Virus record (IMG/VR): IMGVR_UViG_3300028361_000108
Coordinates: 1 to 26,440 of that record
Direction: 5' to 3' (one strand)
Length of the DNA: 26,440 nucleotides
DNA from: a virus
Part shown: positions 5,076 through 25,442 of the stretch, one piece after another
Layout of the letters: each line of letters opens with the position of its first letter
Position numbering within the stretch: the first letter of the stretch is position 1
The notes under the pieces: model-generated
The model's input: only the letters and a program-made list of their open reading frames with translations
Database searches by the model: none
Told to the model about the DNA's origin: nothing
Position numbers and translations under genes: made by a program

Positions 5076-5927
5076 ATGAGTGAAAATATAGAGACTGTAG
5101 ATTATGGCAGCCACCAATTTGATAACGTTAATGATCTAAAAATGGTGCTAGCCACCACGTACCGCCGGCAAATTGACAATTATTTTGGTGACCCAAAACT
5201 AGCACTGCGCTTTTTGAGCGGTGTAGTTAGTGCCGTGCAGCGTACCCCAAAACTTTTGGAGTGCGAACCTGTGTCAGTGATAAATAGCTTTATGACAATG
5301 GCCCAACTGGAACTAATGCCCAGTGACGTAAGTGGCGAGGCATACGTTTTGCCATATAAAAATGTTGCCCAATTTCAGCTTGGGTACCAAGGCCTAATAA
5401 CGTTGTTTTACCGCAGCGGTGCCAAGGACGTTAACGCAGAGATTGTATACAAAAACGACAGCTTTAAATTTGTTAATGGCCAAGTGCAGCACGAGCCGGA
5501 CGTGTTTAACGATAATCGGGGAGAAGCGATTGGCGCGTATGTTATTGTCACTGTGCAGGGTGGTGGTAAAGTTGCCAAGGTAATGAGCAAAAAAGATATT
5601 TTAGCCATTGCTGCAAAGTTTAGTAAAAGTTACAAGAGCAGCCACAGCCCGTGGGACGTAGCCAATGACCCCGAGCTGTGGATGTGGAAAAAGACCGTAC
5701 TAAAACAGGTAGCCAAGCTGGTACCTAAAAACCAAACCATTGTGCACGCAATTAGTGAGGATAACAAAGACAGCATTATTGGTGACCGTATGCAGCTGGC
5801 CAAGGACAGCAGCGCCGGTTTAAAAATGAGTAGTTTAATTAAAACAGATGAAAAAGAAAACAACGGAAAAGCCAACCAAGTTGAAGCCAAAAATGACGAT
5901 GCCCAAGGTGACGCGCAGCAAAAGTAA
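5076..5927 (+). CDS. recT: RecT family single-strand annealing recombinase
   Basis: 283 residues. RecT proteins bind single-stranded DNA and anneal complementary strands during phage recombination. Family signs are LLECEPVSVINSFMTMAQLE followed by LMPSDVSGEAYVLPYKN and AQFQLGYQGLITLFYRSGA (about 60-120), the typical 'Q..YKG/L..L..RSG' core, and a helical segment with SPWDVANDPELWMWKKTVLKQ (about 190-215). The C-terminal ~40 residues are charged and low complexity, as is common in RecT. It is the first gene after the promoter at 5025 and overlaps the nuclease-translocase gene downstream, so the pair is probably co-translated as an exonuclease/annealase system. Confidence 0.92.
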   Translation: MSENIETVDYGSHQFDNVNDLKMVLATTYRRQIDNYFGDPKLALRFLSGVVSAVQRTPKLLECEPVSVINSFMTMAQLELMPSDVSGEAYVLPYKNVAQFQLGYQGLITLFYRSGAKDVNAEIVYKNDSFKFVNGQVQHEPDVFNDNRGEAIGAYVIVTVQGGGKVAKVMSKKDILAIAAKFSKSYKSSHSPWDVANDPELWMWKKTVLKQVAKLVPKNQTIVHAISEDNKDSIIGDRMQLAKDSSAGLKMSSLIKTDEKENNGKANQVEAKNDDAQGDAQQK

Positions 5928-7884
5928 AACCAACCTGCAGGGTTTTCCACTAACCCACTTGAGCGCCAGCAGCATGCGACTTGCTGCCACTAATGCAATT
6001 TTATTTAAAATAAAATACATTAACGGCGACACCATCGACAGTACCAGCAGCCCGGTGTTGGTGTTAGGCAGTGCCTTTCATTGTGCTATGGAGACCTACT
6101 ACGGCGGCAGCGATACGCTGGTACCCAGCAACGAGGCCGAGGCCATTGAGTACGGCCTAAAAACCGGGCTGGCCTACATAGACAATTACCCGGATGGGTT
6201 TATTGGTTGGAACACCACGTACCAAAACAAACAGCAGATACAGGACAAGTTTGTGTTTGCGTTTAATGCCTACGTGCACGAGCGGCCCTATGCGCCAGAC
6301 GTGCTGCACAGCACAGAGGAAAAATTAGAGGAAAAAATTGACATCGAGTGGCGGGGTAAGCAACTAACGTTGCCCGTGGCACTAAAGGGGTACACGGATA
6401 AAATTATTAAAGAGGACGGCAAGCTAATAATTGTCGATTACAAAACCTGCAGCAGTTTTAGTGACCCGGAAAAAATTGACGGGGCTAAAATACTGCAGGG
6501 GGTGATTTACTATTTTTTGGTGTACGCCAAGTACGGGGTTGAACCGTACGCCATGCGGTACGAGGAAATTAAAATGAGTAAAAACCGGGACGGCAGCCCG
6601 CAGGTGCGCGAGTATGAAATGGTATACGCGGACAACGAATTATTTTTTGATTGCTTTTTGCGGTTTTATGATGACGTGATAAGCGCCATCAATGGCAAAA
6701 TGGTTTGGCTACCAAACATTGACGCAATGTTTAACAGTGACATTGCCCTAATTGCCTACATTAACCGGCTGGACGTAGAGGAGGAAAAGGCTGCTCGGAT
6801 GAAAGAAAACAACGTAACTAACATTACTGATCTGCTAAAAAAAGAAATTGCCAACGCTAATAACATGCGCAGTTTCCAAAAGACGCTGGAGAAAAACTTT
6901 ATAAGTGCCAAAAGTTTAGACTATTCTAAAATGACAAATGCTGAAAAAATTAAAACCAAACTAATGGAGTTTGGTATGTTGCTTGACCACGAGGATACTA
7001 TTAACGGCGCCACCGTAGACTTATACCGGTATACGCCCAGCGTAGGGTTAAAAATGAGCCGTGTAGCCAGTTATGCTGCAGATATACAGCAGGTGCTGGG
7101 AGTTGACGGTGTGCGGATATTGACACCAATACCCGGGACCAGTTTTGTGGGCTTTGAGGTACCTGCCGCCGAACGCACATTCCCAGCCATGCCAAAACCA
7201 TTGGGCGGCTTTAAAGTTGCTATTGGAGCAACGCCACAGGGTGACGCGTACCGCTTTGACATACGGGAAGCCCCGCATATGTTAGTGGCCGGTGCCACCG
7301 GTTCTGGTAAAAGTGTTTGGTTGGGTAACTTGATACGACAGCTTGACACTATTAGTAATGCAGAAATTGTATTGTGTGACCCCAAAAAAGTTGAGCTGAA
7401 AGAATTTGCAGGCATGGATAAAGTGGTTGCCCACGTTACTGATCATGACGCCATTGCTTTGGTGCTTATAGAATTGGTCGACGAAATGAACAAGCGCTAC
7501 AACACGTTGGCTGCAGCTGGGGTTAAAAATATTGGCAGCTACAAAGGCAATGACATGCCGTACAAGTTTGTATTTATTGACGAGTTTGGCGACATTACCA
7601 ACGGTGAAAATAAAAAGCTGGTTAACGTGGCACTGCGTGGCTTGGCCCAGATGGCCCGGGCTGCAGGTATACACCTAATATTAGCGACCCAGCGTACTAG
7701 TGTGGACGTGCTGAGCGGTACTATACGGGCAAATTTTCCCACCAAGGTGGCATTTAGAGTGGCTAAACAAGTTGACAGTTTGGTCATACTGGACGAGGCC
7801 GGTGCAGAAAAATTGCTCGGCAAGGGTGACATGCTGTTTAGTACCGAGGCTGGGATTACTAGGTTGCAGGGGTATAAGGAATAA
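5848..7884 (+). CDS. fusion protein: RecB-family PD-(D/E)XK nuclease + FtsK/SpoIIIE DNA translocase
   Basis: 678 residues with two complete domains. Residues about 35-290 are a RecB/Cas4-type PD-(D/E)XK nuclease: GSAFHCAMETYY (His78), GYTDKI (Asp184), IVDYKT (Asp197, Lys199) and the QGVIYY element (Gln217, Tyr221). Residues about 363-678 are an FtsK motor. The alpha part has YTPSVGLKMSRVAS and PIPGTSFVGFEVP. The beta RecA-like part has Walker A GATGSGKS (482-489), Walker B FVFIDEFGD (Asp578, Glu579) and the FtsK hallmark ATQRTSVDVL, then NFPTKVAFRV and GAEKLLGKGDML. It stops right after beta: there is no gamma (KOPS-reading) domain and no membrane segment. It overlaps recT by 80 bases, or 35 if the Met codon at 5893 is used. 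It probably degrades or resects duplex DNA processively for RecT. The two domain calls are firm; joint function is inference. Confidence 0.9.
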   Translation: MKKKTTEKPTKLKPKMTMPKVTRSKSKTNLQGFPLTHLSASSMRLAATNAILFKIKYINGDTIDSTSSPVLVLGSAFHCAMETYYGGSDTLVPSNEAEAIEYGLKTGLAYIDNYPDGFIGWNTTYQNKQQIQDKFVFAFNAYVHERPYAPDVLHSTEEKLEEKIDIEWRGKQLTLPVALKGYTDKIIKEDGKLIIVDYKTCSSFSDPEKIDGAKILQGVIYYFLVYAKYGVEPYAMRYEEIKMSKNRDGSPQVREYEMVYADNELFFDCFLRFYDDVISAINGKMVWLPNIDAMFNSDIALIAYINRLDVEEEKAARMKENNVTNITDLLKKEIANANNMRSFQKTLEKNFISAKSLDYSKMTNAEKIKTKLMEFGMLLDHEDTINGATVDLYRYTPSVGLKMSRVASYAADIQQVLGVDGVRILTPIPGTSFVGFEVPAAERTFPAMPKPLGGFKVAIGATPQGDAYRFDIREAPHMLVAGATGSGKSVWLGNLIRQLDTISNAEIVLCDPKKVELKEFAGMDKVVAHVTDHDAIALVLIELVDEMNKRYNTLAAAGVKNIGSYKGNDMPYKFVFIDEFGDITNGENKKLVNVALRGLAQMARAAGIHLILATQRTSVDVLSGTIRANFPTKVAFRVAKQVDSLVILDEAGAEKLLGKGDMLFSTEAGITRLQGYKE

Positions 7885-10701: not shown

Positions 10702-10721
10702 TTACATGATTAGTGTATAAT
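10698..10721 (+). promoter_or_regulatory. promoter with TATAAT and leaderless start
   Basis: ATGATTACAT (10698-10707, one mismatch to the recurrent ATGATTGCAT) precedes GTGTATAAT; the -10 TATAAT is 10716-10721. The ATG at 10728 begins 6 bases after the -10, at the expected transcription start. Confidence 0.6.
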
Positions 10722-10727
10722 AAAAAT

Positions 10728-10937
10728 ATGAGCACCAAAACAATTTTAAAAAGAAAAACGTACACCGTTAGCATGAAAACTGCGTACACATTAAGCTATA
10801 TGTCCGTCGAGATGTCTGCAGCTAGCAGCCTAAGTGTTAGCCGGCAGGATTTACTTGACGCTGCTATTGAAATTATTAGCGACCCTAAGTTGGCAAAAAA
10901 AGTGCTGCAAACTGTGGTAAAAAATAAAAACGTATGA
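10728..10937 (+). CDS. small basic protein, possible DNA-binding regulator
   Basis: 69 residues starting MSTKTILKRKTYTVSMKTAY. The C-terminal half (SVSRQDLLDAAIEIISDP) reads as two helices preceded by a short basic strand, loosely like ribbon-helix-helix proteins. It is probably expressed from the leaderless promoter just upstream. The stop overlaps the next ATG (ATGA). Function is inferred only from shape. Confidence 0.6.
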   Translation: MSTKTILKRKTYTVSMKTAYTLSYMSVEMSAASSLSVSRQDLLDAAIEIISDPKLAKKVLQTVVKNKNV

Positions 10938-11737
10938 TTACTGATGTTGATTTTTTAATTGCGACAAATACCAACCCAGACGGGTTAGAGCAATTAGTTT
11001 TGAGTATTGCCAAGCATTACCCGGGCGCCCATATTTATATTGGCGATACTAGTAAGCACTTGGTGCGTGCTGATTTTAAAGACTTGGCCACCAAGGCCCG
11101 GGACGCTGGTTTGATTAGCCGGCTGCGGATAAAGCACCTTGGTTACAATGCTAGCGCTGCTGCAGTTTGGACCGCGCTGTTTAGTGAAACGACCCGTAAA
11201 TATAAATTGCTACTAAACGACAGTATGCTATTTACAGAATTTACCGACATTGACACCATGGTGCACACAATGGAAACGCAGCCCAAGGCTATGGTGGTTA
11301 ATGGCACAACCGACAAGGGCGAGGGTGGTGTTGGTTACGATACGGTGGTTAGCACTTTTGCACTTTTGCACGTTGATTTATTTAACGCGTACCGGTGGAA
11401 AGGTGTGGATATTTACCAAGATTTATTTGATTACATTGTAGCTGGTACCACGTACCATGTTTACTTTTGTACAGCACTTATAGGCAGCAGCATAATTGAA
11501 AAAGATGAAAATACACGTGAGCAAACAGGGGGACTTGGCAATGGTGACGGAACACTTACCCAACCAGACGTACCGGGTGACAATGCTGGAGGGGGCCAGC
11601 CAGACGGAAAGCCTGCAGTGCTACCTAGCGGGCAAAATGAAAAAAATGAGAATACAAATACTAGTGGGCGACAAGGTGCAGGTGCTGGTAGACCCGTACA
11701 AAGGCAAGGCAACAAACAAAATAATTTGGCGAAATAA
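10934..11737 (+). CDS. glycosyltransferase-like (GT-A, family 2-type) protein
   Basis: 267 residues as read. Residues 1-190 resemble a GT-A fold: DVDFLIATNTNPDGLEQLVL then HIYIGDTSKHL, a nucleotide-sugar binding pattern, and a KYKLLLNDSMLF segment where GT2 enzymes place their metal-binding acidic residues. From about residue 190 the sequence turns Gly/Asn/Gln-rich and repetitive, and this part is encoded over the IF-1 gene in another frame (233-base overlap). The tail may therefore be a genuine dual-coded extension or just readthrough for want of a stop. The substrate could be modified phage DNA or host surface sugar; nothing decides this. Confidence 0.6.
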   Translation: MITDVDFLIATNTNPDGLEQLVLSIAKHYPGAHIYIGDTSKHLVRADFKDLATKARDAGLISRLRIKHLGYNASAAAVWTALFSETTRKYKLLLNDSMLFTEFTDIDTMVHTMETQPKAMVVNGTTDKGEGGVGYDTVVSTFALLHVDLFNAYRWKGVDIYQDLFDYIVAGTTYHVYFCTALIGSSIIEKDENTREQTGGLGNGDGTLTQPDVPGDNAGGGQPDGKPAVLPSGQNEKNENTNTSGRQGAGAGRPVQRQGNKQNNLAK

Positions 11738-11741
11738 ATAG
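11505..11741 (+). CDS. infA: translation initiation factor IF-1 homologue
   Basis: 78 residues from the ATG at 11505 (a TTG at 11496 would add three). IF-1 is a small OB-fold protein that binds the 30S A site and works with IF-2 and IF-3. The sequence follows bacterial IF-1 almost end to end: an 'xGxVxExLPN' equivalent (LAMVTEHLPN, 11-20), TYRVTML, LAGKMKKMRIQILVGDKVQV (41-60), DPYKGKATNKIIWRNK. Bacterial IF-1 is ~72 residues with LPN..FRV, SGKMR, IRIL.GD.V.VE..PY and a final RI..R. The only departure is a few extra residues before LAGKM. It overlaps the glycosyltransferase-like frame and ends one base before the next gene. In a phage with few SD sites it may bias host initiation; that is inference. 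Confidence 0.85.
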   Translation: MKIHVSKQGDLAMVTEHLPNQTYRVTMLEGASQTESLQCYLAGKMKKMRIQILVGDKVQVLVDPYKGKATNKIIWRNK

Positions 11742-11742
11742 T

Positions 11743-12090
11743 ATGACTACATTAACTGATCCAAAAACCGTTGAGCAAAAAGTAACTGTACCAGCAACCG
11801 AGGCCCAGCCTTATAAAAAACTAATGCGGCGTATTGAGGTTGCACCCATGCAATTTCAAAAAGACCACATGCAGCGGCAAGCTAATAAAATTGTGCAGCG
11901 TATTTGTGGCAATGGCGCAGTTACCCTGTCCGAGGGTGGTGAGGCTTTTAACCCAGCTGGTGTGGCGTGCCCGTACTACGTAATTAGCGTTGATAAAACC
12001 AAGTGCCAAAACCAGCGCCGGCACGGCAGCAAGTTTTGCCAAGCCTGCAGTGACGCCCATACAGTTACAAGCGCAGCAATCATTAACTAA
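11743..12090 (+). CDS. hypothetical protein with C-terminal zinc-finger-like Cys set
   Basis: 115 residues. The N-terminal ~50 are polar. The C-terminal half has CPYYVISVDKTKCQNQRRHG then KFCQACS: four Cys spaced as in a small zinc-binding domain with a basic loop. One base separates it from the IF-1 stop (TAGTATG), so it is probably co-translated. Function unknown; nucleic acid binding is plausible. Confidence 0.65.
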   Translation: MTTLTDPKTVEQKVTVPATEAQPYKKLMRRIEVAPMQFQKDHMQRQANKIVQRICGNGAVTLSEGGEAFNPAGVACPYYVISVDKTKCQNQRRHGSKFCQACSDAHTVTSAAIIN

Positions 12091-12104: not shown

Positions 12105-12506
12105 ATGCAATTAACTCGAGACGCCCTGCAAAATATCCACCGTTTAAGCGATGAGGTAGCGGCGGCAAAAGACAGGTTTGAGGAAGCCACCCGTACAGCC
12201 CAAGACCGCCACAAAGACCGCGAGGTGGAAATTGAGCGCGGGGGCAAAACTATTATGCTGGCGGAAAAAATTTTGTGGGACGAATTATTTCACTTGGGCC
12301 TAGAAAGCCAAGCCGGGCTCAAGCTAAAAGCGTTACACCCGGACGTCTTTACAAATATGGCCGAGCAAAACGCCAAGGCTGCAGAATTAAAAGAATTTGT
12401 CATAGCTACCCTTGGCGTTAACTACACTCAAATGAACCTGAGCGATTACCTGCACGTAACCGAGCAGCTGTACTTGGTGTTGGCTGACGAAAGAAAAAAT
12501 ACGTAA
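12105..12506 (+). CDS. hypothetical helical protein
   Basis: 133 residues, strongly helical. The first ~55 residues (QNIHRLSDEVAAAKDRFEEA, RHKDREVEIERGG) look like a coiled coil. The rest is a compact helical region ending with a Leu-rich helix (YLHVTEQLYLVLADERKNT). No family recognised. One base separates its stop from the ParB-like gene. Confidence 0.65.
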   Translation: MQLTRDALQNIHRLSDEVAAAKDRFEEATRTAQDRHKDREVEIERGGKTIMLAEKILWDELFHLGLESQAGLKLKALHPDVFTNMAEQNAKAAELKEFVIATLGVNYTQMNLSDYLHVTEQLYLVLADERKNT

Positions 12507-12507
12507 T

Positions 12508-13098
12508 ATGGAAATACTGCAATTAGACATAAACGTTGTAATGCCCTACGAGAAAAATGCTAAAAAGCACCCGCAGGAGCAGGTACTAAAAATTGCAAAT
12601 AGCATAACCGAGTTTGGTTTTAACCAGCCCATTGTATGTGACACCAAAAACGTGATCATTGTGGGCCATGGCCGGTTGGAGGCCGCTAAAAAACTTGGTT
12701 TAAAGACAGTACCAGTTACGTACGCAAATATTACCGAGGACCAAGCCAAGGCGTACCGGCTAGCTGACAATAAATTAAATGAAAGCCCTTGGGATATGCA
12801 GCTGGTAATTGCCGAGCTGCAGGAAATTAGTTTACCGATGGTGCAGCTAACCGGGTTTAGTAGCGAACTGGTTGACCTAGGTCTAGATATGGACGGGTTT
12901 GCTTTACCTACGGACGGGGACGGCACGGAGCAAATGACATTTACATTAACCAACCTGCAGGCCAAGGCTTTAAAAGACGCACTAGCCAACGTAAAGACAC
13001 TGCCAGAATTTGCGGCAATAGTGGAGACTGACCAAAATACAAATAGTAACGGTAACGCGCTTTATGCGCTGGTAACACTATGGGAGCAAAAGACCTAA
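12508..13098 (+). CDS. ParB N-terminal (ParB/Srx-fold) domain protein
   Basis: 196 residues. Residues 1-95 match the ParB N-terminal domain of phage and DNA-modification proteins: ILQLDINVVMPYEKNAKKHP, IANSITEFGFNQPIVCD, the nucleotide-binding GHGRLEAAKKLGLKTVPV, then RLADNKLNE. In phages this domain commonly precedes an adenine methyltransferase in one polypeptide; here it stands alone, and its gene overlaps the Mom-like gene by 19 bases. The C-terminal ~100 residues (TFTLTNLQAKALKDAL) have the features seen at the end of such phage proteins. I infer a partner or targeting subunit for the Mom-like enzyme. The ParB domain can bind and hydrolyse CTP in chromosome partition, but a partition role is unlikely without ParA. 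Confidence 0.8.
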   Translation: MEILQLDINVVMPYEKNAKKHPQEQVLKIANSITEFGFNQPIVCDTKNVIIVGHGRLEAAKKLGLKTVPVTYANITEDQAKAYRLADNKLNESPWDMQLVIAELQEISLPMVQLTGFSSELVDLGLDMDGFALPTDGDGTEQMTFTLTNLQAKALKDALANVKTLPEFAAIVETDQNTNSNGNALYALVTLWEQKT

Positions 13099-13733
13099 AA
13101 CTAAAAACCATTAGCTCCAAGCTAGCTAACCAGTTTATCAAGGACACGCATTACAGCGGCAAGGTGGCACCCAACAGTCAGCTGCACTTTGGCGTCTACT
13201 ATGAGGGCGGGTTACATGGGGTTATGCAGTACGGCCCCAGCATAAATAAAAAGGGCACAGTCAACTTAGTTGCTGGTACTGGGTTTTATGAGTTTTGCGA
13301 ATTAAACCGCATGGCGTTTGATGACGTGCTGCCCAAAAATAGTGAAAGCCGGGCCATTGCAATTAGCTTGAAGCTGATCAAAAAATACGCCCCGCATATT
13401 AAATGGGTTATTAGTTTTGCGGACGCAACCAGTTGCGGGGACGGTGCTATTTACCGGGCCAGTGGTTTTAAATTAGTTGGGGCCACTGCCAACACAGCCC
13501 TGCGGCAAAACCCTGACAATGGGGAGGTTATGCATACAATACAGGCCCACCATAAAATGATTGCTGGTGACTTTAGAAAATGGAAACCGCTGCAGGGTTT
13601 CCAAATAAAATATATATTTTTTATTGACAAAAGTTGCGAGCAAAACCTAACGCTGCCGGTGCTGCCGTTTAGCCACCTTGAAAAGATTGGTGCACGTATG
13701 TATAAAGGCAAGCGGCCCACTGTGGTAAAATGA
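13080..13733 (+). CDS. Mom-like DNA modification protein (GNAT-related)
   Basis: 217 residues. Mu Mom converts adenine to N6-(carbamoylmethyl)adenine, protecting DNA from restriction. The pattern here fits Mom-like proteins: FIKDTHYSGKVAP, HFGVYYEGGLHGVMQYG, CELNRMAFDDVLPKNSESRA, KYAPHIKWVISFADATSCG, then AIYRASGFKLVG, typical of the GNAT-like fold with its central strand-loop-helix. The rest is basic (KMYKGKRP-like ending). It overlaps the ParB-like gene by 19 bases, so the two form a unit. The modified base and target sequence cannot be read from sequence. The family call is from pattern recognition. Confidence 0.75.
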   Translation: MGAKDLKLKTISSKLANQFIKDTHYSGKVAPNSQLHFGVYYEGGLHGVMQYGPSINKKGTVNLVAGTGFYEFCELNRMAFDDVLPKNSESRAIAISLKLIKKYAPHIKWVISFADATSCGDGAIYRASGFKLVGATANTALRQNPDNGEVMHTIQAHHKMIAGDFRKWKPLQGFQIKYIFFIDKSCEQNLTLPVLPFSHLEKIGARMYKGKRPTVVK

Positions 13734-13740
13734 TGGCAAC

Positions 13741-13812
13741 GCGTTAGCAGTGTAATGGCTACACACCGGGCTACCAGCTTGGAGATGGCGGTTCGATACC
13801 GACCCTGACGCA
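13741..13812 (+). tRNA. tRNA-like gene, apparent anticodon ACC (glycine codon GGU)
   Basis: A cloverleaf can be drawn. Acceptor GCGTTAG (13741-13747) pairs with CTGACGC (13805-13811), discriminator A at 13812. D-stem GTGT/ACAC with loop AATGGCT (GG at 13757-13758). Anticodon stem CCGGG/CTTGG with two G-U pairs and loop CTACCAG. T-stem GGCGG with CCG(A)CC (one bulged A) closing the loop TTCGATA. No CCA is encoded. Oddities are C instead of U at position 8, the bulged T-stem and an ACC anticodon, which is very rare in bacteria. The acceptor 5' side also lies in a 13-bp sequence repeated in the promoter at 19129. It may be functional, degenerate or a tRNA mimic. Confidence 0.55.
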
Positions 13813-15526: not shown

Positions 15527-16003
15527 ATGCAAGTAAAACAAGCGGAGTTAATTGCCCTAAAGCTAATGCATATGCATGGGTTGGTAAAGGAGGGTTGGCA
15601 GTTTAAAATTGACGAGGCCAAGCGCCGGGGCGGGTTGTGCAGCTTTAAAAATAAAACCATTAGCGTTAGCCGCCACCTGATCGAACGTAACAACGAACCA
15701 GCCACCATTGACGTGCTGCTGCATGAGATAGCTCATGCCTTGGTTGGCCCTATGCATGGGCATAACGGGATATGGCGGCACCGGGCAATGTCCATTGGCT
15801 GCAACGGCAAACGTTGCCACAACCACGATATGCCCGAGGGTAAATATTTAGGCATGTGCCCAAGCTGCAGAAAAGAGCGCCGGGGACACCGGCGTAACCG
15901 GGTAGCCTGTGGGCAGTGCTGCCGCAAATACAATGGCGGCAAATTTACCCATGAGTATTTATTGGTATGGTCAGCAGCAAAATTAGTGGGTAATAAAAAA
16001 TAA
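15527..16003 (+). CDS. SprT-like zinc metallopeptidase
   Basis: 158 residues. The catalytic motif LLHEIAHALVGP (His66, Glu67, His70) with a downstream His (GPMHGHNGIWRHR) defines the SprT/SPRTN-like zincin fold. It is followed by a zinc ribbon with CPSC (111-114) and CGQCC (128-132). SprT-like proteases in eukaryotes cleave DNA-protein crosslinks; bacterial and phage versions are thought to act on DNA-bound proteins. Length and layout match small bacterial and phage members. It may clear proteins from phage DNA during replication or packaging; that is inference. Confidence 0.85.
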   Translation: MQVKQAELIALKLMHMHGLVKEGWQFKIDEAKRRGGLCSFKNKTISVSRHLIERNNEPATIDVLLHEIAHALVGPMHGHNGIWRHRAMSIGCNGKRCHNHDMPEGKYLGMCPSCRKERRGHRRNRVACGQCCRKYNGGKFTHEYLLVWSAAKLVGNKK

Positions 16004-16912: not shown

Positions 16913-17149
16913 ATGAGTAACGTTTCAGAGAAGTCAAGGTTAGCCACCTTATTATTATGCTGGTTTTTAGGCGTGTTTGGCGCGCACCGGTTTTATGCCG
17001 GCAAGACGGGCACCGCAATAGTAATGCTGGTTTTAACCTGCACTGTGGTTGGTTTATTGGTTACAGGGATTTGGATGTTTATTGATCTAATAATGACTGC
17101 CGCCGGCAGCTTTAAAGACGGGCAAGGGCGGCAAATTAAAACTTGGTAG
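16913..17149 (+). CDS. TM2 domain membrane protein
   Basis: 78 residues. The whole protein is a TM2 domain: two membrane spans (ATLLLCWFLGVFGAHRFYAG and VMLVLTCTVVGLLVTGIWMF), the diagnostic 'FLG.FGAHRFY.GK' turn, then a W-x-x-D-like element (GIWMFIDLIM). TM2 proteins are widespread in bacteria with no settled function; phage copies may act at the host membrane. The gene follows a hairpin-rich non-coding stretch and is 3 bases from the next gene. Confidence 0.88.
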   Translation: MSNVSEKSRLATLLLCWFLGVFGAHRFYAGKTGTAIVMLVLTCTVVGLLVTGIWMFIDLIMTAAGSFKDGQGRQIKTW

Positions 17150-19156: not shown

Positions 19157-19645
19157 ATGGCCAGCCCAAAACGTAGTTTAAAAAAAGCACATACCCACGC
19201 TATTACTGGCCGGCAGACGGGTAGGATAAACCCGTACACGTACGAAATTAGAGACATTAACTTTGGTGTGCTGCAGGTTAAAAATACCAGCAACGGGTGG
19301 TGGTTAGACAGGAGTAAAGTGCAACGGCTGATAGACGCATTTAAAATTGGTAGCACTGACGAAGAGGCTTGTTTATACGCCGGTGTAAGCCTGAACGCTT
19401 TTAAATATTTTATTGTACTGCACCCAGAGTTTGCACCCATAAAAAAGCAATTAAAGGATTTGCCAATATTAGTGGCCCGGCAGACAGTGGTTAACAACTT
19501 GGCCAAGGACGCAAACTTGGCCATGCGCTACCTAGAAAAAAAGCGCCGCGACGAGTTTGGTGCCAGCGTGGACATTACCAGTGGGGGCCAGCAAATTGGT
19601 GGTAACCAAATAGAATTTGTAGACTTCCATGATCCAAAAGATTAA
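19157..19645 (+). CDS. terS: terminase small subunit
   Basis: 162 residues. The middle (about 55-120) has the helix-turn-helix pattern of phage small terminases, 'RLIDAFKIGSTDEEACLYAG' then VSLNAFKYFIVLHPEF, followed by a helix (VARQTVVNNLAKDANLAMRY) and the common ending 'LEKKRRDEFG'. It recognises phage DNA at the packaging initiation site and delivers it to the large subunit. It overlaps the large terminase gene by 17 bases. The N-terminal ~50 residues are basic and less conserved. Confidence 0.83.
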   Translation: MASPKRSLKKAHTHAITGRQTGRINPYTYEIRDINFGVLQVKNTSNGWWLDRSKVQRLIDAFKIGSTDEEACLYAGVSLNAFKYFIVLHPEFAPIKKQLKDLPILVARQTVVNNLAKDANLAMRYLEKKRRDEFGASVDITSGGQQIGGNQIEFVDFHDPKD

Positions 19646-20918
19646 CAGCCATTATGCAAAAGTATTCACGGCCCCATTGGGGCACTACCGCTACATAATA
19701 AACATGGGCGGGCGTGGTGCCGGGCGTAGTAAAGTGGCGGCCCAGCGCGCCACAGCAAAAATTTGTGCGCCCGAGTATTACCGTGCAGCTATTATGCGTT
19801 TGGTAAAAGAAGATATTAAAAACTCTATTTTTACAGACGTCCGGGACAATATGGAGGAATTAGGTATTGACCAAATTATTAACATAACCGAGAACCCGTT
19901 GATGTTTAGGTATGGGAAAAACTCAATACGCGGCCTAGGCTTTAAAAAGAATGGCGACCAAAAAAGTAAACTAAAATCACTGGCCAACTTTAACGAAGTT
20001 ATTATCGAGGAAGCCGACGAAATTGGCCCCGAGGATTTTATAATGTTGGATGACAGTTTGCGTACGCTAAAAAGCCCGGTAACGGTAATGATGAATTTAA
20101 ACCCGCCTGACATAAACCATTGGATTATAAAGCGCTGGTTTAACTTGGTGCAGGCAATAGATGAGGACGGCAACGTGGTGGACGGTTTTTATAAACCGGT
20201 GCTAAAAAGTGAGTTTACTGAACAGGTTTTGTTTATTGACACAAACTATTTAGTTAATGCTAAAAACATTGCAGCCAGTACTAAATATAACTGGGAACAA
20301 TACCGCACAACTAACCCGGACCACTACTGGAGCGTGATACGTGGAATGGTTAGCGCCGGGGCCAAGGGGCGTATTTATAAAAATTGGTTACCCTTGTCTG
20401 CAACTGAGTTTGACGCGCTGCCATACCCCAGCTACTACGCAATAGACTTTGGTTTTACAAACGACCCCACGGCCATTGTGGAAATTAAAGAACATAACAA
20501 CCGGGTTTATGTTAAAGAGCTGGTATACCGCACCGGCCTAATTAACCGCGACCCGGGCGGCAAGCTGCCAAATATTAGCGACGAACTTGCCCGGCATGAC
20601 GTGCCCAAGGGTGCCCGGATTTATGCCGATTGTGCTGAACCCAAAAGTATTGCTGAGCTGCAGGCTGACGGCTGGAACGTGCACGCAAGCACCAAGGGTA
20701 GCGACAGCATACGGGTGGGGGTAGACTTGCTACTAGGTAAAGAGGTTTTTTATACTGAGAACAGCAGCAACGTTGAGCGTGAGCAGCAAAAATACTGTTG
20801 GGGTTTGGACAAAAACAAAGAACCCACTAACAAACCAATTGACGATTTTAATCACGCCATGGACGCCATCCGGTATGGGGTCTATACTCACAGTCTGCGC
20901 AGCTACGTTGGTTTTTAG
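19629..20918 (+). CDS. terL: terminase large subunit (PBSX/Terminase_3-like)
   Basis: 429 residues. ATPase motor: NMGGRGAGRS (Walker A variant, 26-34), VIIEEADE (Walker B with catalytic Glu, about 118-127), MMNLNPPDINHW (coupling motif). RNase H-like nuclease: YAIDFGFTNDPTA (first Asp), YADCAEPKSI (second Asp), then IDDFNHAMDAIRYG (third acidic site). It cuts concatemeric DNA and pumps it into the prohead. Length is normal for the PBSX-type family. It directly follows the small subunit and precedes the portal, the standard packaging order. Confidence 0.95.
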   Translation: MIQKINSHYAKVFTAPLGHYRYIINMGGRGAGRSKVAAQRATAKICAPEYYRAAIMRLVKEDIKNSIFTDVRDNMEELGIDQIINITENPLMFRYGKNSIRGLGFKKNGDQKSKLKSLANFNEVIIEEADEIGPEDFIMLDDSLRTLKSPVTVMMNLNPPDINHWIIKRWFNLVQAIDEDGNVVDGFYKPVLKSEFTEQVLFIDTNYLVNAKNIAASTKYNWEQYRTTNPDHYWSVIRGMVSAGAKGRIYKNWLPLSATEFDALPYPSYYAIDFGFTNDPTAIVEIKEHNNRVYVKELVYRTGLINRDPGGKLPNISDELARHDVPKGARIYADCAEPKSIAELQADGWNVHASTKGSDSIRVGVDLLLGKEVFYTENSSNVEREQQKYCWGLDKNKEPTNKPIDDFNHAMDAIRYGVYTHSLRSYVGF

Positions 20919-20927
20919 TGCTATACT
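20919..20927 (+). promoter_or_regulatory. extended -10 promoter after terL
   Basis: TG-C-TATACT begins at the base after the terL stop. It is followed by AACGG, so the CTAACGG half-site lies at the -10/start junction. It could drive a short transcript ending at the terminator at 21014. Confidence 0.45.
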
Positions 20928-20958
20928 AACGGTACGCAGTTACGGAGAAAATCACTGC

Positions 20959-21030
20959 ATGGTTTTAAAAAGCGCGAGCGCTAGCGTGGCAACACCTTGG
21001 CCCGCCGCCAGAGAAAAAGCTATATACTGA
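20959..21030 (+). CDS. possible 23-residue leader peptide
   Basis: ATG 20959 to TGA 21028-21030, MVLKSASASVATPWPAAREK plus three residues. GGAG lies at 20944-20947 and its stop is inside the terminator stem at 21014-21044, as in attenuator leaders. Translation is not certain; it may be chance. Confidence 0.25.
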   Translation: MVLKSASASVATPWPAAREKAIY

Positions 21031-21044
21031 GATATAGCTTTTTT
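21014..21044 (+). terminator. strong (bidirectional-looking) intrinsic terminator between terL and portal
   Basis: AAAAAGCTATAT - ACTGAG - ATATAGCTTTTTT: a 12-bp perfect stem with A-tract and U-tract on the two sides. It insulates packaging from head genes, which then start from the promoter at 21074. Confidence 0.85.
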
Positions 21045-21073
21045 GCTGACAAATAGTTTTGCTCTGGCAATTG

Positions 21074-21083
21074 GTGATATACT
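21074..21083 (+). promoter_or_regulatory. head operon promoter, extended -10 (GTGATATACT)
   Basis: TG-A-TATACT (21075-21083), the same 12-base string GTGATATACTAA as at 16469, 20 bases before the portal ATG and just after a terminator. No good -35. Confidence 0.6.
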
Positions 21084-21103
21084 AAAAGCACTATTTATTT
21101 TAT

Positions 21104-23068
21104 ATGGGACTACTAGACAACTTTAGGAAAAACTGGGGGGCCAAAAAGTATACGGGAATTATTGCCGGGGGGTTACCTGCTGGCACGCGCTGGGGCGATA
21201 TGTCATTTTTAAAAGCCAACGATGTCTCGCTGTACACAAACCGCGCTATTAGCCGCCGGGCACAAAAGGTAGGTGAGATTGATTTTGTGGTACTTGACGC
21301 CAAGGGGGCGGTCATTGAAAACGACCCAATACTAAAGGTTTTAAACCGGCCTAACAAACATTTTAGCAAGTACGATTTTTGGGCACTAAACCAAACCTAT
21401 ATTGACGTTGTTGGTGACAGTTACGTGTGGATGGAAACAAACCGAAAAGACGCATTTAGCGCCAAGACTATAACAGCAATGCACATACTGCGCCCTGATC
21501 TGGTAAAGGCCGTATACGTAAAGGGCATGCTGCTGCACTACGAGTACAGCACCCCAGACGGTACCGTAAATTATGACGCTGATGAGGTGGTGCACTTTTA
21601 CCGACCTGACCCGCTAAACCCGCTAAAGGGTGTTAGCTTGCTAAAAGCTGGTATACACGCCATCCAAACCGAGCAGCAGATTGGTGCGTACCATGCGCGC
21701 ATTTTAGAGAACGGTGGAAAAATTGAGGGTGTAATGAAATTTACTACTGAACGGCTGCAGCCAGAACAATTGCAGGAATTAAAGGACGGGTACGAAAAAG
21801 AATATGCAGACGCCCGTAACGCAGGCCGGCCACTGTTTGTCGGCGGTGACGCTGCATACCAAAACCTAGGGCTAACGCCACACGAAATGGCGTTTATGGA
21901 CGCCAAGAAAATGACGCTCGAGGACATTGTAATTATGACCGCGGTGCCTAAAATATTGCTTGGGTCGGTTGATGACGTGCAGTTTAGTAACAGTGACGCC
22001 AGCATGCGTATGTTTTTGCGGGAGACGATTAACCCGTTGTTAAAGGCGTTAACTAGTGCACTAACTCACAAACTAACCGACGACACCAAGACAATTAGTT
22101 TTATTGACCCGACCCCTGAGAACATTGACGAAAAGCTAAAGCAAATTGCTAGCGGTGTTACCAACCATTATTTAACTGTAAACGAAGCCCGTGAAATGAG
22201 CGAGTTAGGCCTTGAACCCATAGAGGGTGGGGACACCATTATGGTGCCATTTAACCTGTTGCCATTAGGCAAAGAACGGTTTACTACACCGGCCCCGGGT
22301 ACCGACGAAAAAAAACTAAAAAGCACAATTGAGCACCCACTGCTAGACGTAGACGTACGGTCTATGTGGGCTGACATTAGTGTAAAGCGTGCAGACGCGC
22401 GGGAGGAAATTTTTATCAAACACCTTGATAATTATTTTAAAGAACAGATGGGTCGGTTTGTGGCTGCCGTGTCCATTGATCAAAAACGGGTGTTTAGAAT
22501 TAAAAACCTGTTTGACGAGGTCGCAAATGCTACGCTTGAGATTAGGTTAGGCCACAGTACGTTATATCCAGTGCTGGCTGAGATGGCCGAGGCTGCTGGT
22601 AATGACAGTATGCGGTTGGCAGGCAGCACATACGGGTTTAACATGACCAGTGACGTCACGGGTTGGATTGACGCGCGCACCAATGTGTTTATGGAGAAAA
22701 TTACCGCAACCACTTTTGAGAAATTAAAGAGTGAGTTTCAAGCTAGCTTTGACGCCGGTGAAAGCCGGCCCGAATTAGTTGCGCGTATTGAAAATACATA
22801 TGGGGAAATTACCGAATGGCGGTCAAACCTTATTGCCCGCACCGAGGTACACATTGCCAGCCAGTATGCAAACATGGAGGGTTATAAACAGGCCGGGTTA
22901 AATATAAAAATATGGGTTGCCGTTGGTGACATACACACGCGGGACAGCCATTACATTATGGACGGGCAAGAGCGGCCAATTGGTATGCCGTTTAGTAATG
23001 GCCTAATGTTTCCGGGCGACCCAACCGGGTCTGCGGGTGAGGTAATAAACTGCCGCTGCACAATGTAG
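21104..23068 (+). CDS. portal protein fused to MuF-like head morphogenesis domain
   Basis: 654 residues. Residues 1 to about 400 are an HK97-type portal: AISRRAQKVGEIDFVVLD, DPILKVLNRPNKHFSKYDFW, DEVVHFYRPDPLNPLKGVSL, then MTLEDIVIMTAVPKILLGSV. The portal is the dodecameric ring for DNA passage and connector assembly. Residues about 430-654 match MuF/SPP1 gp7-type minor head proteins: a long helical part, LIARTEVHIASQYANMEGYK, then WVAVGDIHTRDSHYIMDGQE and the end GEVINCRCTM. Usually these are two genes; here they are one frame without a stop. The join is near DEKKLKSTIEHPLLDVDVRS. Confidence 0.88.
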   Translation: MGLLDNFRKNWGAKKYTGIIAGGLPAGTRWGDMSFLKANDVSLYTNRAISRRAQKVGEIDFVVLDAKGAVIENDPILKVLNRPNKHFSKYDFWALNQTYIDVVGDSYVWMETNRKDAFSAKTITAMHILRPDLVKAVYVKGMLLHYEYSTPDGTVNYDADEVVHFYRPDPLNPLKGVSLLKAGIHAIQTEQQIGAYHARILENGGKIEGVMKFTTERLQPEQLQELKDGYEKEYADARNAGRPLFVGGDAAYQNLGLTPHEMAFMDAKKMTLEDIVIMTAVPKILLGSVDDVQFSNSDASMRMFLRETINPLLKALTSALTHKLTDDTKTISFIDPTPENIDEKLKQIASGVTNHYLTVNEAREMSELGLEPIEGGDTIMVPFNLLPLGKERFTTPAPGTDEKKLKSTIEHPLLDVDVRSMWADISVKRADAREEIFIKHLDNYFKEQMGRFVAAVSIDQKRVFRIKNLFDEVANATLEIRLGHSTLYPVLAEMAEAAGNDSMRLAGSTYGFNMTSDVTGWIDARTNVFMEKITATTFEKLKSEFQASFDAGESRPELVARIENTYGEITEWRSNLIARTEVHIASQYANMEGYKQAGLNIKIWVAVGDIHTRDSHYIMDGQERPIGMPFSNGLMFPGDPTGSAGEVINCRCTM

Positions 23069-23078
23069 CGTCTGGGGT

Positions 23079-23088
23079 GTGATACAAT
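23079..23088 (+). promoter_or_regulatory. extended -10 promoter upstream of prohead protease
   Basis: GTGATACAAT (TG-A-TACAAT) 19 bases before the protease ATG, a variant of the GTGATATACT set. Supports separate transcription of protease and capsid. Confidence 0.45.
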
Positions 23089-23107
23089 TTAATTAACAAA
23101 AACCAGC

Positions 23108-24019
23108 ATGGCAAAAAAAAGTAATCTAAAACTAAAAACAGGTGAAAAGGCAATTATCTCAATGCCGGTTACTATTAAAGGTGTTGACAAGGAAAATTAC
23201 ACTTTAACCATGGTGGCTAGCACCCAAAAGGAAGACCGGCACGGGGACATAGTTTTGCAGGACGGTTGGGATTTAAAGCCGTACAAAAAGAACCCGGTTA
23301 TCTTAAATAGCCACAACTACAATGACGCAACCGAGGTAATTGCCAAGGCGGTTAGCACAAAAGTTGAAGGCACCGGGGTTAACGCCAAGCTGGTACAAGT
23401 GTGGAAATTTGCCGTCGACGAAAACCCCAAGGCAAAAATTATATTTGACCTGTACGCAGGTGGGTACCTGCACGCCAGCAGTGTTGGGTTTATCCCCAAG
23501 TCATTTAAAGAGGGTGACTATTTTACAATTGAAACCGCCGAACTTTTGGAGGTTAGTGCAGTAAGTGTGCCAGCCAACGCCACCGCCACGCTAGCCAAAA
23601 GCATTGGCGTTGATACCAAAGAGCTGGAGGCAGCTGTTGTGGTTGAACCGGAACCCGAAACTGAAACCGAACCCGAAACGGAACCCGAACCAGACGTCCC
23701 GGTTGAAACTGACGAACCGGAACCCGTTACTGATCCAGAACCAATTGCGCCAGTTGAACCAGTGGCCCCAGTTGCACCGGTTGAGCCAGACGTACCAGAC
23801 GTACCCGAGCCAATTGTGCAGCTGTCCGTAAATACCAAAACTTTAAACGCAATTAAAAGCATAGAGCTGGCCCACAGGGAAAAAGTGGCCAAGGCGTACC
23901 AGTTAATTAAAACCCTACACACTGACCATGGTATTACCTATCTACCCGGGGACAGTAAAGCCAAAGCCCGTAAAGAGAAAATTAACAAAGCCATTAGGTT
24001 GCTGGTAGCTGCAAAATAA
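23108..24019 (+). CDS. HK97-family prohead protease with acidic Pro-rich linker
   Basis: 303 residues. The protease domain (about 15-165) has DRHGDIVLQDGWDL, NPVILNSHNYN (catalytic His69), YLHASSVGFIPK (nucleophile Ser124 or Ser125) and TAELLEVSAVSVPAN (Glu149), the herpes/HK97 prohead protease triad region. A ~65-residue low-complexity stretch of Glu, Pro and Val (about 175-240) follows, then a basic helical C-terminus (HREKVAKAYQLIKTLH, KARKEKINKAIRLL). The extra C-terminal part may act as scaffold. The protease matures the prohead by cleaving the delta domain of the capsid protein encoded next. Confidence 0.88.
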   Translation: MAKKSNLKLKTGEKAIISMPVTIKGVDKENYTLTMVASTQKEDRHGDIVLQDGWDLKPYKKNPVILNSHNYNDATEVIAKAVSTKVEGTGVNAKLVQVWKFAVDENPKAKIIFDLYAGGYLHASSVGFIPKSFKEGDYFTIETAELLEVSAVSVPANATATLAKSIGVDTKELEAAVVVEPEPETETEPETEPEPDVPVETDEPEPVTDPEPIAPVEPVAPVAPVEPDVPDVPEPIVQLSVNTKTLNAIKSIELAHREKVAKAYQLIKTLHTDHGITYLPGDSKAKARKEKINKAIRLLVAAK

Positions 24020-24107
24020 AACCAATAGCAAGTGTCGATAACGTGACCCCGGCGAAAGCCAAAACTCCCAGACGTGGGCGGTAATTACAAAAAAACATAA
24101 TTTATTT
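24020..24107 (+). promoter_or_regulatory. structured 5' leader of the capsid gene
   Basis: Between protease and capsid lie GGC-GAAA-GCC (24051-24060), CCCA-GACG-TGGG (24067-24078), GGTAATTAC, and an A/T-rich run into the ATG. The order GGYGAAAGCC, hairpin, GGGCGgTAAnTACA also occurs at 16724-16755. Possibly an mRNA stabiliser, translation enhancer or processing element for the highest-expressed gene. Confidence 0.4.
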
Positions 24108-25442
24108 ATGAGCGAATTACTAAAACTGATTAAAAGTTTGATGAAAAAAGGGGTCGCAACTGTTGCCGAAAAAGCACAGGTTGCCAAGTTGCTAAAAGCG
24201 CTTGATGACGGTGACGCCGAGGTGGTTGCTGATGAGGCTGCTGCTGTTGCTGCGTTGCCCGAGGAGGCCGTTGAGGAACCTACCGACGAAGATGTGGATG
24301 CCGGCATTAAAGCGCTGTTTTCAAAGCACGCAAAAAGTGTAACGGACGAAGTCACTGAAAAAGTGAAAACGTTTATGTCAGAGCAAAACGAACTGATTGC
24401 AAAGCAAGCTGGTGCGTATCACCCTGACCTAGTGACAAAACGTAAAGGGCTAAACGCCACTTTGCGCGAGACGTGTAAATACCTATTGCGGGGCGACGAG
24501 GCCAAGCTAAAGGAAATGACAACCGACGAAAGTGGTACGCCGTACGCAGGGTACACAGTTGACAGTGAGCTGTCTGCTGAAATCCAACACCTTGTTTCCG
24601 TTTACGGTGTTGCACGGCGTGAAATGCAGTCAATCCAATTGACAAAGCATGAGTACAAAGCAAACAACCTAGCAACGGACGTGTCTGTATACTGGGTTGA
24701 CGAGGGTGCTGTGGTCAGTTCAACGCAGGCTGTACTAGGACAGGAAACGCTTACGCTTAAAAAGCTGGGTGCCATTATTACTGTTACAGCTGAGCTGTTG
24801 GAAGATACTGAAATTGACTTTATGTCATTTCTTGCAGCGCGTGTTGCTGAGGGGTTTGCCCTTGCCGAGGACCAAGCGTTCTTTGTGGGTAACGGGACAG
24901 GTACGTTTGGTGGCTTCACCGGTGTACTGCGTAACACGTCAACTAACAATGTGGCGATGGCTACAGGGCAAGTTGCGTTTACAAACTTGACCGCTGACCT
25001 GTTGCTGGATATGCAGGACGCAACGCCAGCAGGTGCTTTGCCTAACGCAAAGTATTACTACCACCGTAGTATCAAGTCAATTGTCCGAAAGCTAAAAGAT
25101 GATAACGGGGCTTACATTTACCAAGCGCCGTCACAGCAAGGGCCTGCGACAGTTTGGGGGATGCCCGAGGTATTGGTTGAATCCATGCCAGCAATTGCTG
25201 CTAGTGGTGCGTCAACGGCGTTTGTTCTCTTTGGTGATCTGCGAAAGGCGGCAATCTTTGGTTACAAAGGTTCCATTAACGCTGCACGGTTCCAAGGCGG
25301 TACAGTGCGCAACGTTGCTGCGGACGCTGACATTAACCTTATTACAACAGACCGAGAGGCGGTACGTTGGACTGAGCGAGTTGGTTACGTGACAATCGTA
25401 CCAAAGGCGGTTACCCGACTTACTACTGGGGCTGCGGCATAA
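24108..25442 (+). CDS. major capsid protein (HK97 gp5 fold)
   Basis: 444 residues. The N-terminal ~110 residues are an acidic, helical scaffolding (delta) domain (MSELLKLIKSLMKKG; TDEVTEKVKTFMSEQNELIA) that the protease should remove. The body has the HK97 signs: GYTVDSELSAEIQHLVSVYG (N-arm and E-loop start), WVDEGAVVSSTQAV, LGAIITVTAELLEDTEIDF, ALAEDQAFFVGNGTGTFGGF (spine and A-domain), MPEVLVESMPAIA and VLFGDLRKAAIFGYK near the C-terminus. Codon use is more regular than in neighbouring genes, as expected for a highly expressed protein. It assembles the icosahedral shell. Confidence 0.95.
   Translation: MSELLKLIKSLMKKGVATVAEKAQVAKLLKALDDGDAEVVADEAAAVAALPEEAVEEPTDEDVDAGIKALFSKHAKSVTDEVTEKVKTFMSEQNELIAKQAGAYHPDLVTKRKGLNATLRETCKYLLRGDEAKLKEMTTDESGTPYAGYTVDSELSAEIQHLVSVYGVARREMQSIQLTKHEYKANNLATDVSVYWVDEGAVVSSTQAVLGQETLTLKKLGAIITVTAELLEDTEIDFMSFLAARVAEGFALAEDQAFFVGNGTGTFGGFTGVLRNTSTNNVAMATGQVAFTNLTADLLLDMQDATPAGALPNAKYYYHRSIKSIVRKLKDDNGAYIYQAPSQQGPATVWGMPEVLVESMPAIAASGASTAFVLFGDLRKAAIFGYKGSINAARFQGGTVRNVAADADINLITTDREAVRWTERVGYVTIVPKAVTRLTTGAAA

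Follow-up and report, generated by a model that had tools for sequence, protein, structure and literature searches.

The infA-like gene and its neighbours

The gene described here lies at 11505–11741 on the plus strand of the window, by which we mean the whole stretch of DNA analysed, a virus record of 26,440 bases. Read from its ATG at 11505 it encodes 78 amino acids, as the initial annotation had described, and it resembles the translation initiation factor IF-1, the product of bacterial infA. It lies entirely within the 3' end of a longer open reading frame (ORF) at 10934–11737 (plus strand, 267 amino acids), and in a different frame. This nesting went unreported in that annotation, which was right about the identity of the gene. 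The longer ORF is glycosyltransferase-family-2-like (GT-like) in its core, residues 1–196, and its C-terminal tail shares its DNA with infA. Upstream is an ORF of 74 amino acids (10713–10937, plus strand) that is conserved in a related record, L185, and just downstream of infA is a Cys-rich ORF of 115 amino acids (11743–12090, plus strand), with a C-terminal relative in a contig of 38.5 kb (L222).

The profile search against IF-1 families that had been proposed as a check gives a match to PF01176 with E=1.8e-9 and 37.5 bits, above the Pfam gathering cut-off of 30.2, and no other PF01176 match is found in the record. TIGR00008 (infA) matches at 5.4e-12 with 45.5 bits; this is under the NCBI equivalog cut-off of 61.15, and the ORF is therefore best filed as a homologue in the IF-1 family rather than as an assured infA. 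It is also matched by phrog_30201 (2e-10) and by IF-1 chains in the PDB (from 2.8e-7), with roughly 28–37% identity to solved bacterial IF-1s. The N-terminal OB domain of RsgA (PF16745) scores 20.9 bits on the same ORF, below its gathering cut-off of 27. The match to IF-1 is thus well beyond chance, but it covers residues 12–76 and not the whole length as first claimed, the N-terminal MKIH being without counterpart. A second start codon, the GTG at 11517–11519 (plus strand), would give a protein of 74 amino acids beginning MSKQGD, in line with the M[AS]KQ starts of IF-1s. This resembles the MAKQ(G) with which IF-1s begin in the phylum that a Chlorobiaceae genome belongs to, and also the SKE/AKE of phage IF-1s started by GTG or ATG. 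Because the product from the GTG fits an IF-1 N-terminus (MAKQ/MSKE), the start of infA is uncertain between the two codons, and GTG 11517 may be the true one rather than ATG 11505.

Structure prediction, also proposed at the outset, points the same way. The AlphaFold model has a mean pLDDT of 74 and an OB-type strand order, and in a Foldseek search of the PDB all 13 of the first 13 ranks are bacterial IF-1; a second-look aligner, VIA, gives Z 9.6 over 63 residues at 2.1 A. The alignment behind the model consists of 27 window and IMG/VR sequences, all of them IF-1s, which leans the fold towards IF-1, so that the result is supportive and not independent. Judged by profiles and predicted fold together, the ORF is a real IF-1 homologue, and the observation of a phage-encoded member of this family is confirmed. 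The OB fold is common to IF-1 and cold-shock proteins. A protein that has left initiation altogether, and uses the IF-1 fold in the manner of a cold-shock protein as an RNA chaperone or antiterminator, would share this fold, and the residues that were lost (see below) are IF-1-specific ones; yet the best profiles and structures are those of IF-1 and not of cold-shock proteins, and we consider such a role distinctly unlikely.

The protein has the OB fold, the length (74–78 amino acids) and the LPN...GK(M)...GDxV...PY...R core of bacterial IF-1. In E. coli numbering LPN, G38, K39, I45, G50-D51, V53, P59-Y60 and R70 are kept. Unlike bacterial IF-1, it scores below the equivalog cut-off, has a four-residue loop insertion and lacks E56, D61, G65 and R66. 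These are changed to L, K, N and K, respectively, at positions that are each at least 90% conserved among the 29 phage IF-1s compared. Further changes are R41 to K and R46 to Q; the PYDLxKGR signature is gone, with PYKGKATNK in its place, and the net charge is +6 compared with +2 in E. coli IF-1. The gene also differs from bacterial infA in lying outside a ribosomal-protein operon and nested in another gene. In a tree of 64 sequences the end branch of the window protein measures 4.3, about 24 times the median of 0.18. Its nearest rows are two phage IF-1s, L014 and L022 (98/94), where long-branch attraction is possible and the phage set was picked by similarity; for these reasons the placement does not settle the donor of infA. 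No close relatives were confirmed in IMG/VR, and the GTDB genomes searched gave only a Chlorobiaceae infA at 31%. Direct homology identified neither donor nor host, and in the collections searched this version of IF-1 is represented by one sequence only. The protein looks like a fast-evolving homologue, which after this divergence may or may not have canonical IF-1 activity.

The GT-like ORF is itself unusual. It aligns with a GT2 protein (PF00535) of L185 at 30% identity (2e-27), and the similarity stops at residue 196, just inside infA; the L185 protein has a further C-terminal stretch that is missing from the window ORF. The metal-site DDD of the L185 protein aligns with NDS, and a Pfam search gave no match at E 1, so that neither a DxD-type site nor a Pfam match marks the ORF as an active GT2, and its GT core may be inactive. 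Modelled alone with AlphaFold it reaches a pLDDT of 41, too low to be informative. In L185 the GT gene is directly followed by a homologue of the window gene at 12105, with neither infA nor the ORF at 11743–12090 between them. Going by this one relative, the simplest reading would be that infA arrived on a segment that went into this GT gene at its 3' end.

The phage, its start codons and its likely host

The gene order suggests a tailed phage with an ordinary small genome. The window has a head module of small-siphophage type (terminase large subunit, portal-MuF, prohead protease and major capsid, 19629–25442, plus strand), and RecT with a PD-(D/E)XK/FtsK fusion (5076–7884, plus strand), whose relatives are on contigs of 36–43 kb without IF-1; for RecT these are mostly on contigs of 30–43 kb. 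The best relative of the terminase is on a circular siphovirus of 39,642 bases and that of the portal in the 39-kb Geobacillus phage GBK2, where the gene order is broadly the same as in the window if read around the circle. The virus record is a linear piece of 26.4 kb, and a scan of the window for terminal repeats found none. From the gene order and the sizes of the relatives, the complete genome probably measures about 40 kb, and the phage is probably a tailed siphophage of roughly this type whose tail module is missing from the record. PF01176 was found in 0 of 38 related records, even at E 10. An IF-1 in a phage whose genes are ordered as in a ~40-kb siphophage, when none of these related records has one, would be new, as would an infA wholly inside the 3' end of a GT-like ORF in another frame.

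The window holds several other genes of interest. The fusion is an ORF of 678 amino acids (5848–7884, plus strand) in which a PD-(D/E)XK exonuclease is joined to an FtsK/SpoIIIE motor; it adjoins RecT and is conserved in its relatives L179–L188. At 12508–13733 (plus strand) a ParB-N-like ORF is followed by a Mom DNA-modification gene, a pair that recurs in many IMG/VR contigs. A TM2-domain protein (16913–17149) and an SprT-like metalloprotease (15527–16003) are encoded on the plus strand. A tRNA-like element at 13741–13812 (plus strand) scores 32.8 bits, over the Rfam gathering score, and is not called by ARAGORN; its loop reads ACC (Gly GGU), it folds better than shuffled sequences (z -2.6) and it is without an encoded CCA.

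The statement that the phage mRNAs are SD-less, without Shine-Dalgarno (SD) motifs at their starts, is borne out by the start contexts. Among 44 hand-chosen starts in the window none has an SD-like tetramer, where random positions would be expected to give 5.4 (P 0.0025); 73% of the starts have T at -1, and there is an excess of A at -3 and -6. When ORFs are called uniformly, the values for SD and T(-1) are 0.03 and 0.68 in the window, 0.04 and 0.64 in Prevotella phage Lak-C1, 0.10 and 0.72 in MW202577, and 0.05 and 0.41 in Nonlabens phage P12024S; GBK2 uses SD (0.68). The mRNAs of Bacteroidota likewise have no SD, with a preference for A at -3 and -6 (PMC6847099, PMC9976891). Since SD-less, A-rich starts with T at -1 are as in Bacteroidota phages, a Bacteroidota host is likely.

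An IF-1 in a phage is not in itself new, and IF1 and IF3 of huge phages have already been published (PMC7162821). The convincing named phages with IF-1 have genomes of 469–595 kb (Phosso 469 kb, Lak about 540 kb, uncultured phages 484–595 kb), which together with that paper agrees with the earlier remark that such factors come mainly from very large phages. The IF-1s of these phages are phage-encoded like that of the window, whose tree neighbours L014 and L022 are also phage IF-1s, but they belong to genomes of hundreds of kb and keep the PYDLxKGR that it lacks. The loci sampled mostly use SD, and the frame that the window infA leaves open is interrupted by stops in them. Another comparison is phage bS21 (PMC6375957, PMC9723584, discussed in PMC9976891), also a single protein of the initiation side of the small subunit and with Bacteroidia as proposed hosts; it is a different protein at a different site, bS21 being at the mRNA platform and IF-1 at the A site.

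In IMG/VR 496 stretches match IF-1, and PF01176 was present in 40 of 40 records tested, which might suggest that IF-1 is common in small phages. This was rejected: the phrog_2 terminase was found in 0 of 16 IF-1-bearing IMG/VR records, some of the contigs match stretches of 330- and 383-kb contigs exactly, and among the others a number have neighbouring DNA in common with these. Many are therefore probably fragments of jumbo phages, although this is not settled for all. MT835508, MT836419, MT840008 and MT836093 were excluded as contamination by cellular DNA, with ribosomal-protein, Adk, Map or housekeeping genes beside infA, as were contigs of 'Acinetobacter phage MD-2021a', which look chromosomal and carry leuB/C/D, truA and ansA. 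The phage-filed CAKLQH020000005 and CAKLQF020000005 also look like bacterial chromosome from the genes around infA.

Two frames in the same DNA

The overlap of infA with the GT-like ORF extends over 11505–11737 on the plus strand. Codon scores over this region are 16.6 for the infA frame, 4.4 for the GT frame and -45.5 for the third frame. The GT frame is without stops across all 77 overlapping codons (P=0.0022, given the codon usage of the phage and the protein sequence that infA encodes); among 452 comparable windows in other genes none is open, and 29 other phage infA genes have 2–15 stops each in the corresponding one. T is absent from the third codon position of infA in all 68 codons from 11517 to 11722, where the lowest count elsewhere is 8 of 68 (4761 windows). 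Through the overlap the first position of the GT frame has G at 0.43 and T at 0.01, and so resembles the first position of a codon more than an unconstrained third one. The missing T thus appears to be the mark of a doubly read sequence, that is, of DNA read in two frames at once. The tail predicted for the GT frame is hydrophilic, rich in Gly, Asn, Gln and Pro, and without aromatic residues.

The T is avoided both where a stop would arise and where it would not. As avoidance at codons that carry no risk of a stop goes further than simple stop avoidance, selection on the composition of the tail or an unexplained codon bias are alternatives to it. In the second case the overlap would be incidental: an infA of unusual codon bias would leave a functionless GT frame open, an idea that also has in its favour that the pattern comes from a single sequence. 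A donor with T near 0 at the third position and yet A at 0.32 would be odd, however, the absence of T is seen in no other gene or phage infA examined, and the G-rich first position (0.43) is like that of real genes. We regard an incidental overlap as somewhat unlikely.

The open GT frame, with its coding-like base use through the overlap, and the very long IF-1 branch would also suit a decaying import, in which infA was recombined into the GT 3' end and only the GT protein with its new tail is now needed. The infA frame does not resemble a decaying one, having normal coding scores, no stops and its core residues, and the GT itself lacks the DDD motif and the C-terminal region, which makes decay very improbable.

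The overlap is the most unusual feature of the locus. If the double reading is real, about 230 bases (~230) of one phage mRNA, read in two frames, would yield both an IF-1 and a disordered tail of the GT-like protein. Because the IF-1 start is SD-less and inside the upstream gene, it might itself be a target of IF-1 action, a self-tuning switch. We put this reading forward as a whole, double reading included, tentatively and at somewhat less than even confidence. Overprinted overlapping genes of viruses (PMC8227390) likewise have two coding-like frames in one stretch of DNA, with a younger product that looks disordered; they differ from the present case, in which a core translation factor occupies the older frame and the evidence is from a single sequence. 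Overlaps whose older frame encodes a core cellular translation factor would be rare, and this would be one of them if the double reading is real.

What the protein may do

IF-1 binds the A site of the 30S subunit, where it helps IF-2 and IF-3. In vitro it promotes initiation on leaderless mRNAs and by 70S scanning (PMC9031893). Most likely the window protein would act as an IF-1 on 30S subunits during infection. The reason that had been proposed for carrying infA, a shift of ribosomes towards SD-less mRNAs, is unsupported, and nothing in the window points to leaderless ones. At other IF-1-bearing phage loci SD is found at 43% of 879 starts, compared with 12.6% in the control; as most of these contigs use SD, the rule that IF-1 goes with SD-less genomes was rejected, and a preference for SD-less mRNAs cannot explain in general why phages have the gene. 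Hosts of the kind considered here ignore SD, so that such a preference would not separate phage from host mRNA either.

The best explanation seems to us the following. The infA gene would have been acquired by a tailed phage of roughly the 40-kb type, its DNA coming to lie at the 3' end of the GT-like gene, and the GT frame would continue through it, so that the GT protein gains a hydrophilic tail rich in Gly, Asn and Gln. The infA product, small and basic and with an OB fold, would then occupy the 30S A site as IF-1 does, work with host IF-2 and IF-3, and change initiation in favour of the phage, by way of start-codon or initiator-tRNA selection or the availability of 30S. That this is a genuine, fast-evolving phage IF-1 homologue, acquired by such a ~40-kb-type phage from a host that is SD-less and probably one of the Bacteroidota, and acting on 30S initiation to the benefit of the phage, we hold with slightly better than even confidence. 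The analysis itself shows the homology, the predicted fold, SD-less starts in the phage, the lack of the gene in related phages and a dual-frame signature in the sequence; that the protein is expressed, binds 30S and affects initiation, as well as the phylum of the host and who benefits, is what we infer from the DNA.

With near-invariant residues lost, tuning or blocking host IF-1 are real options beside substitution. As a decoy, the protein would bind the 30S A site without supporting IF-2 and IF-3 and so block host initiation (host shut-off). The fold and most core residues are kept while near-invariant ones are gone and the charge has risen to +6, as could be expected of such an inhibitor, and for a small phage with just one added gene of this kind an inhibitor would be fitting. 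A general block would strike the phage mRNAs too, which have the same kind of start, and a decoy seems to us quite unlikely. Action on initiation in favour of the phage is the reading that we prefer.

Bacteria cannot do without IF-1, which ranks with the most conserved of translation proteins. A hyperdiverged version carried by a phage would thus be a natural experiment on which of its residues are needed. In SD-less bacteria the usual handle on initiation, the SD-antiSD pairing, is unused, and a small phage that spends 240 bases on an IF-1 would offer a way to test whether initiation in such bacteria is steered by viruses.
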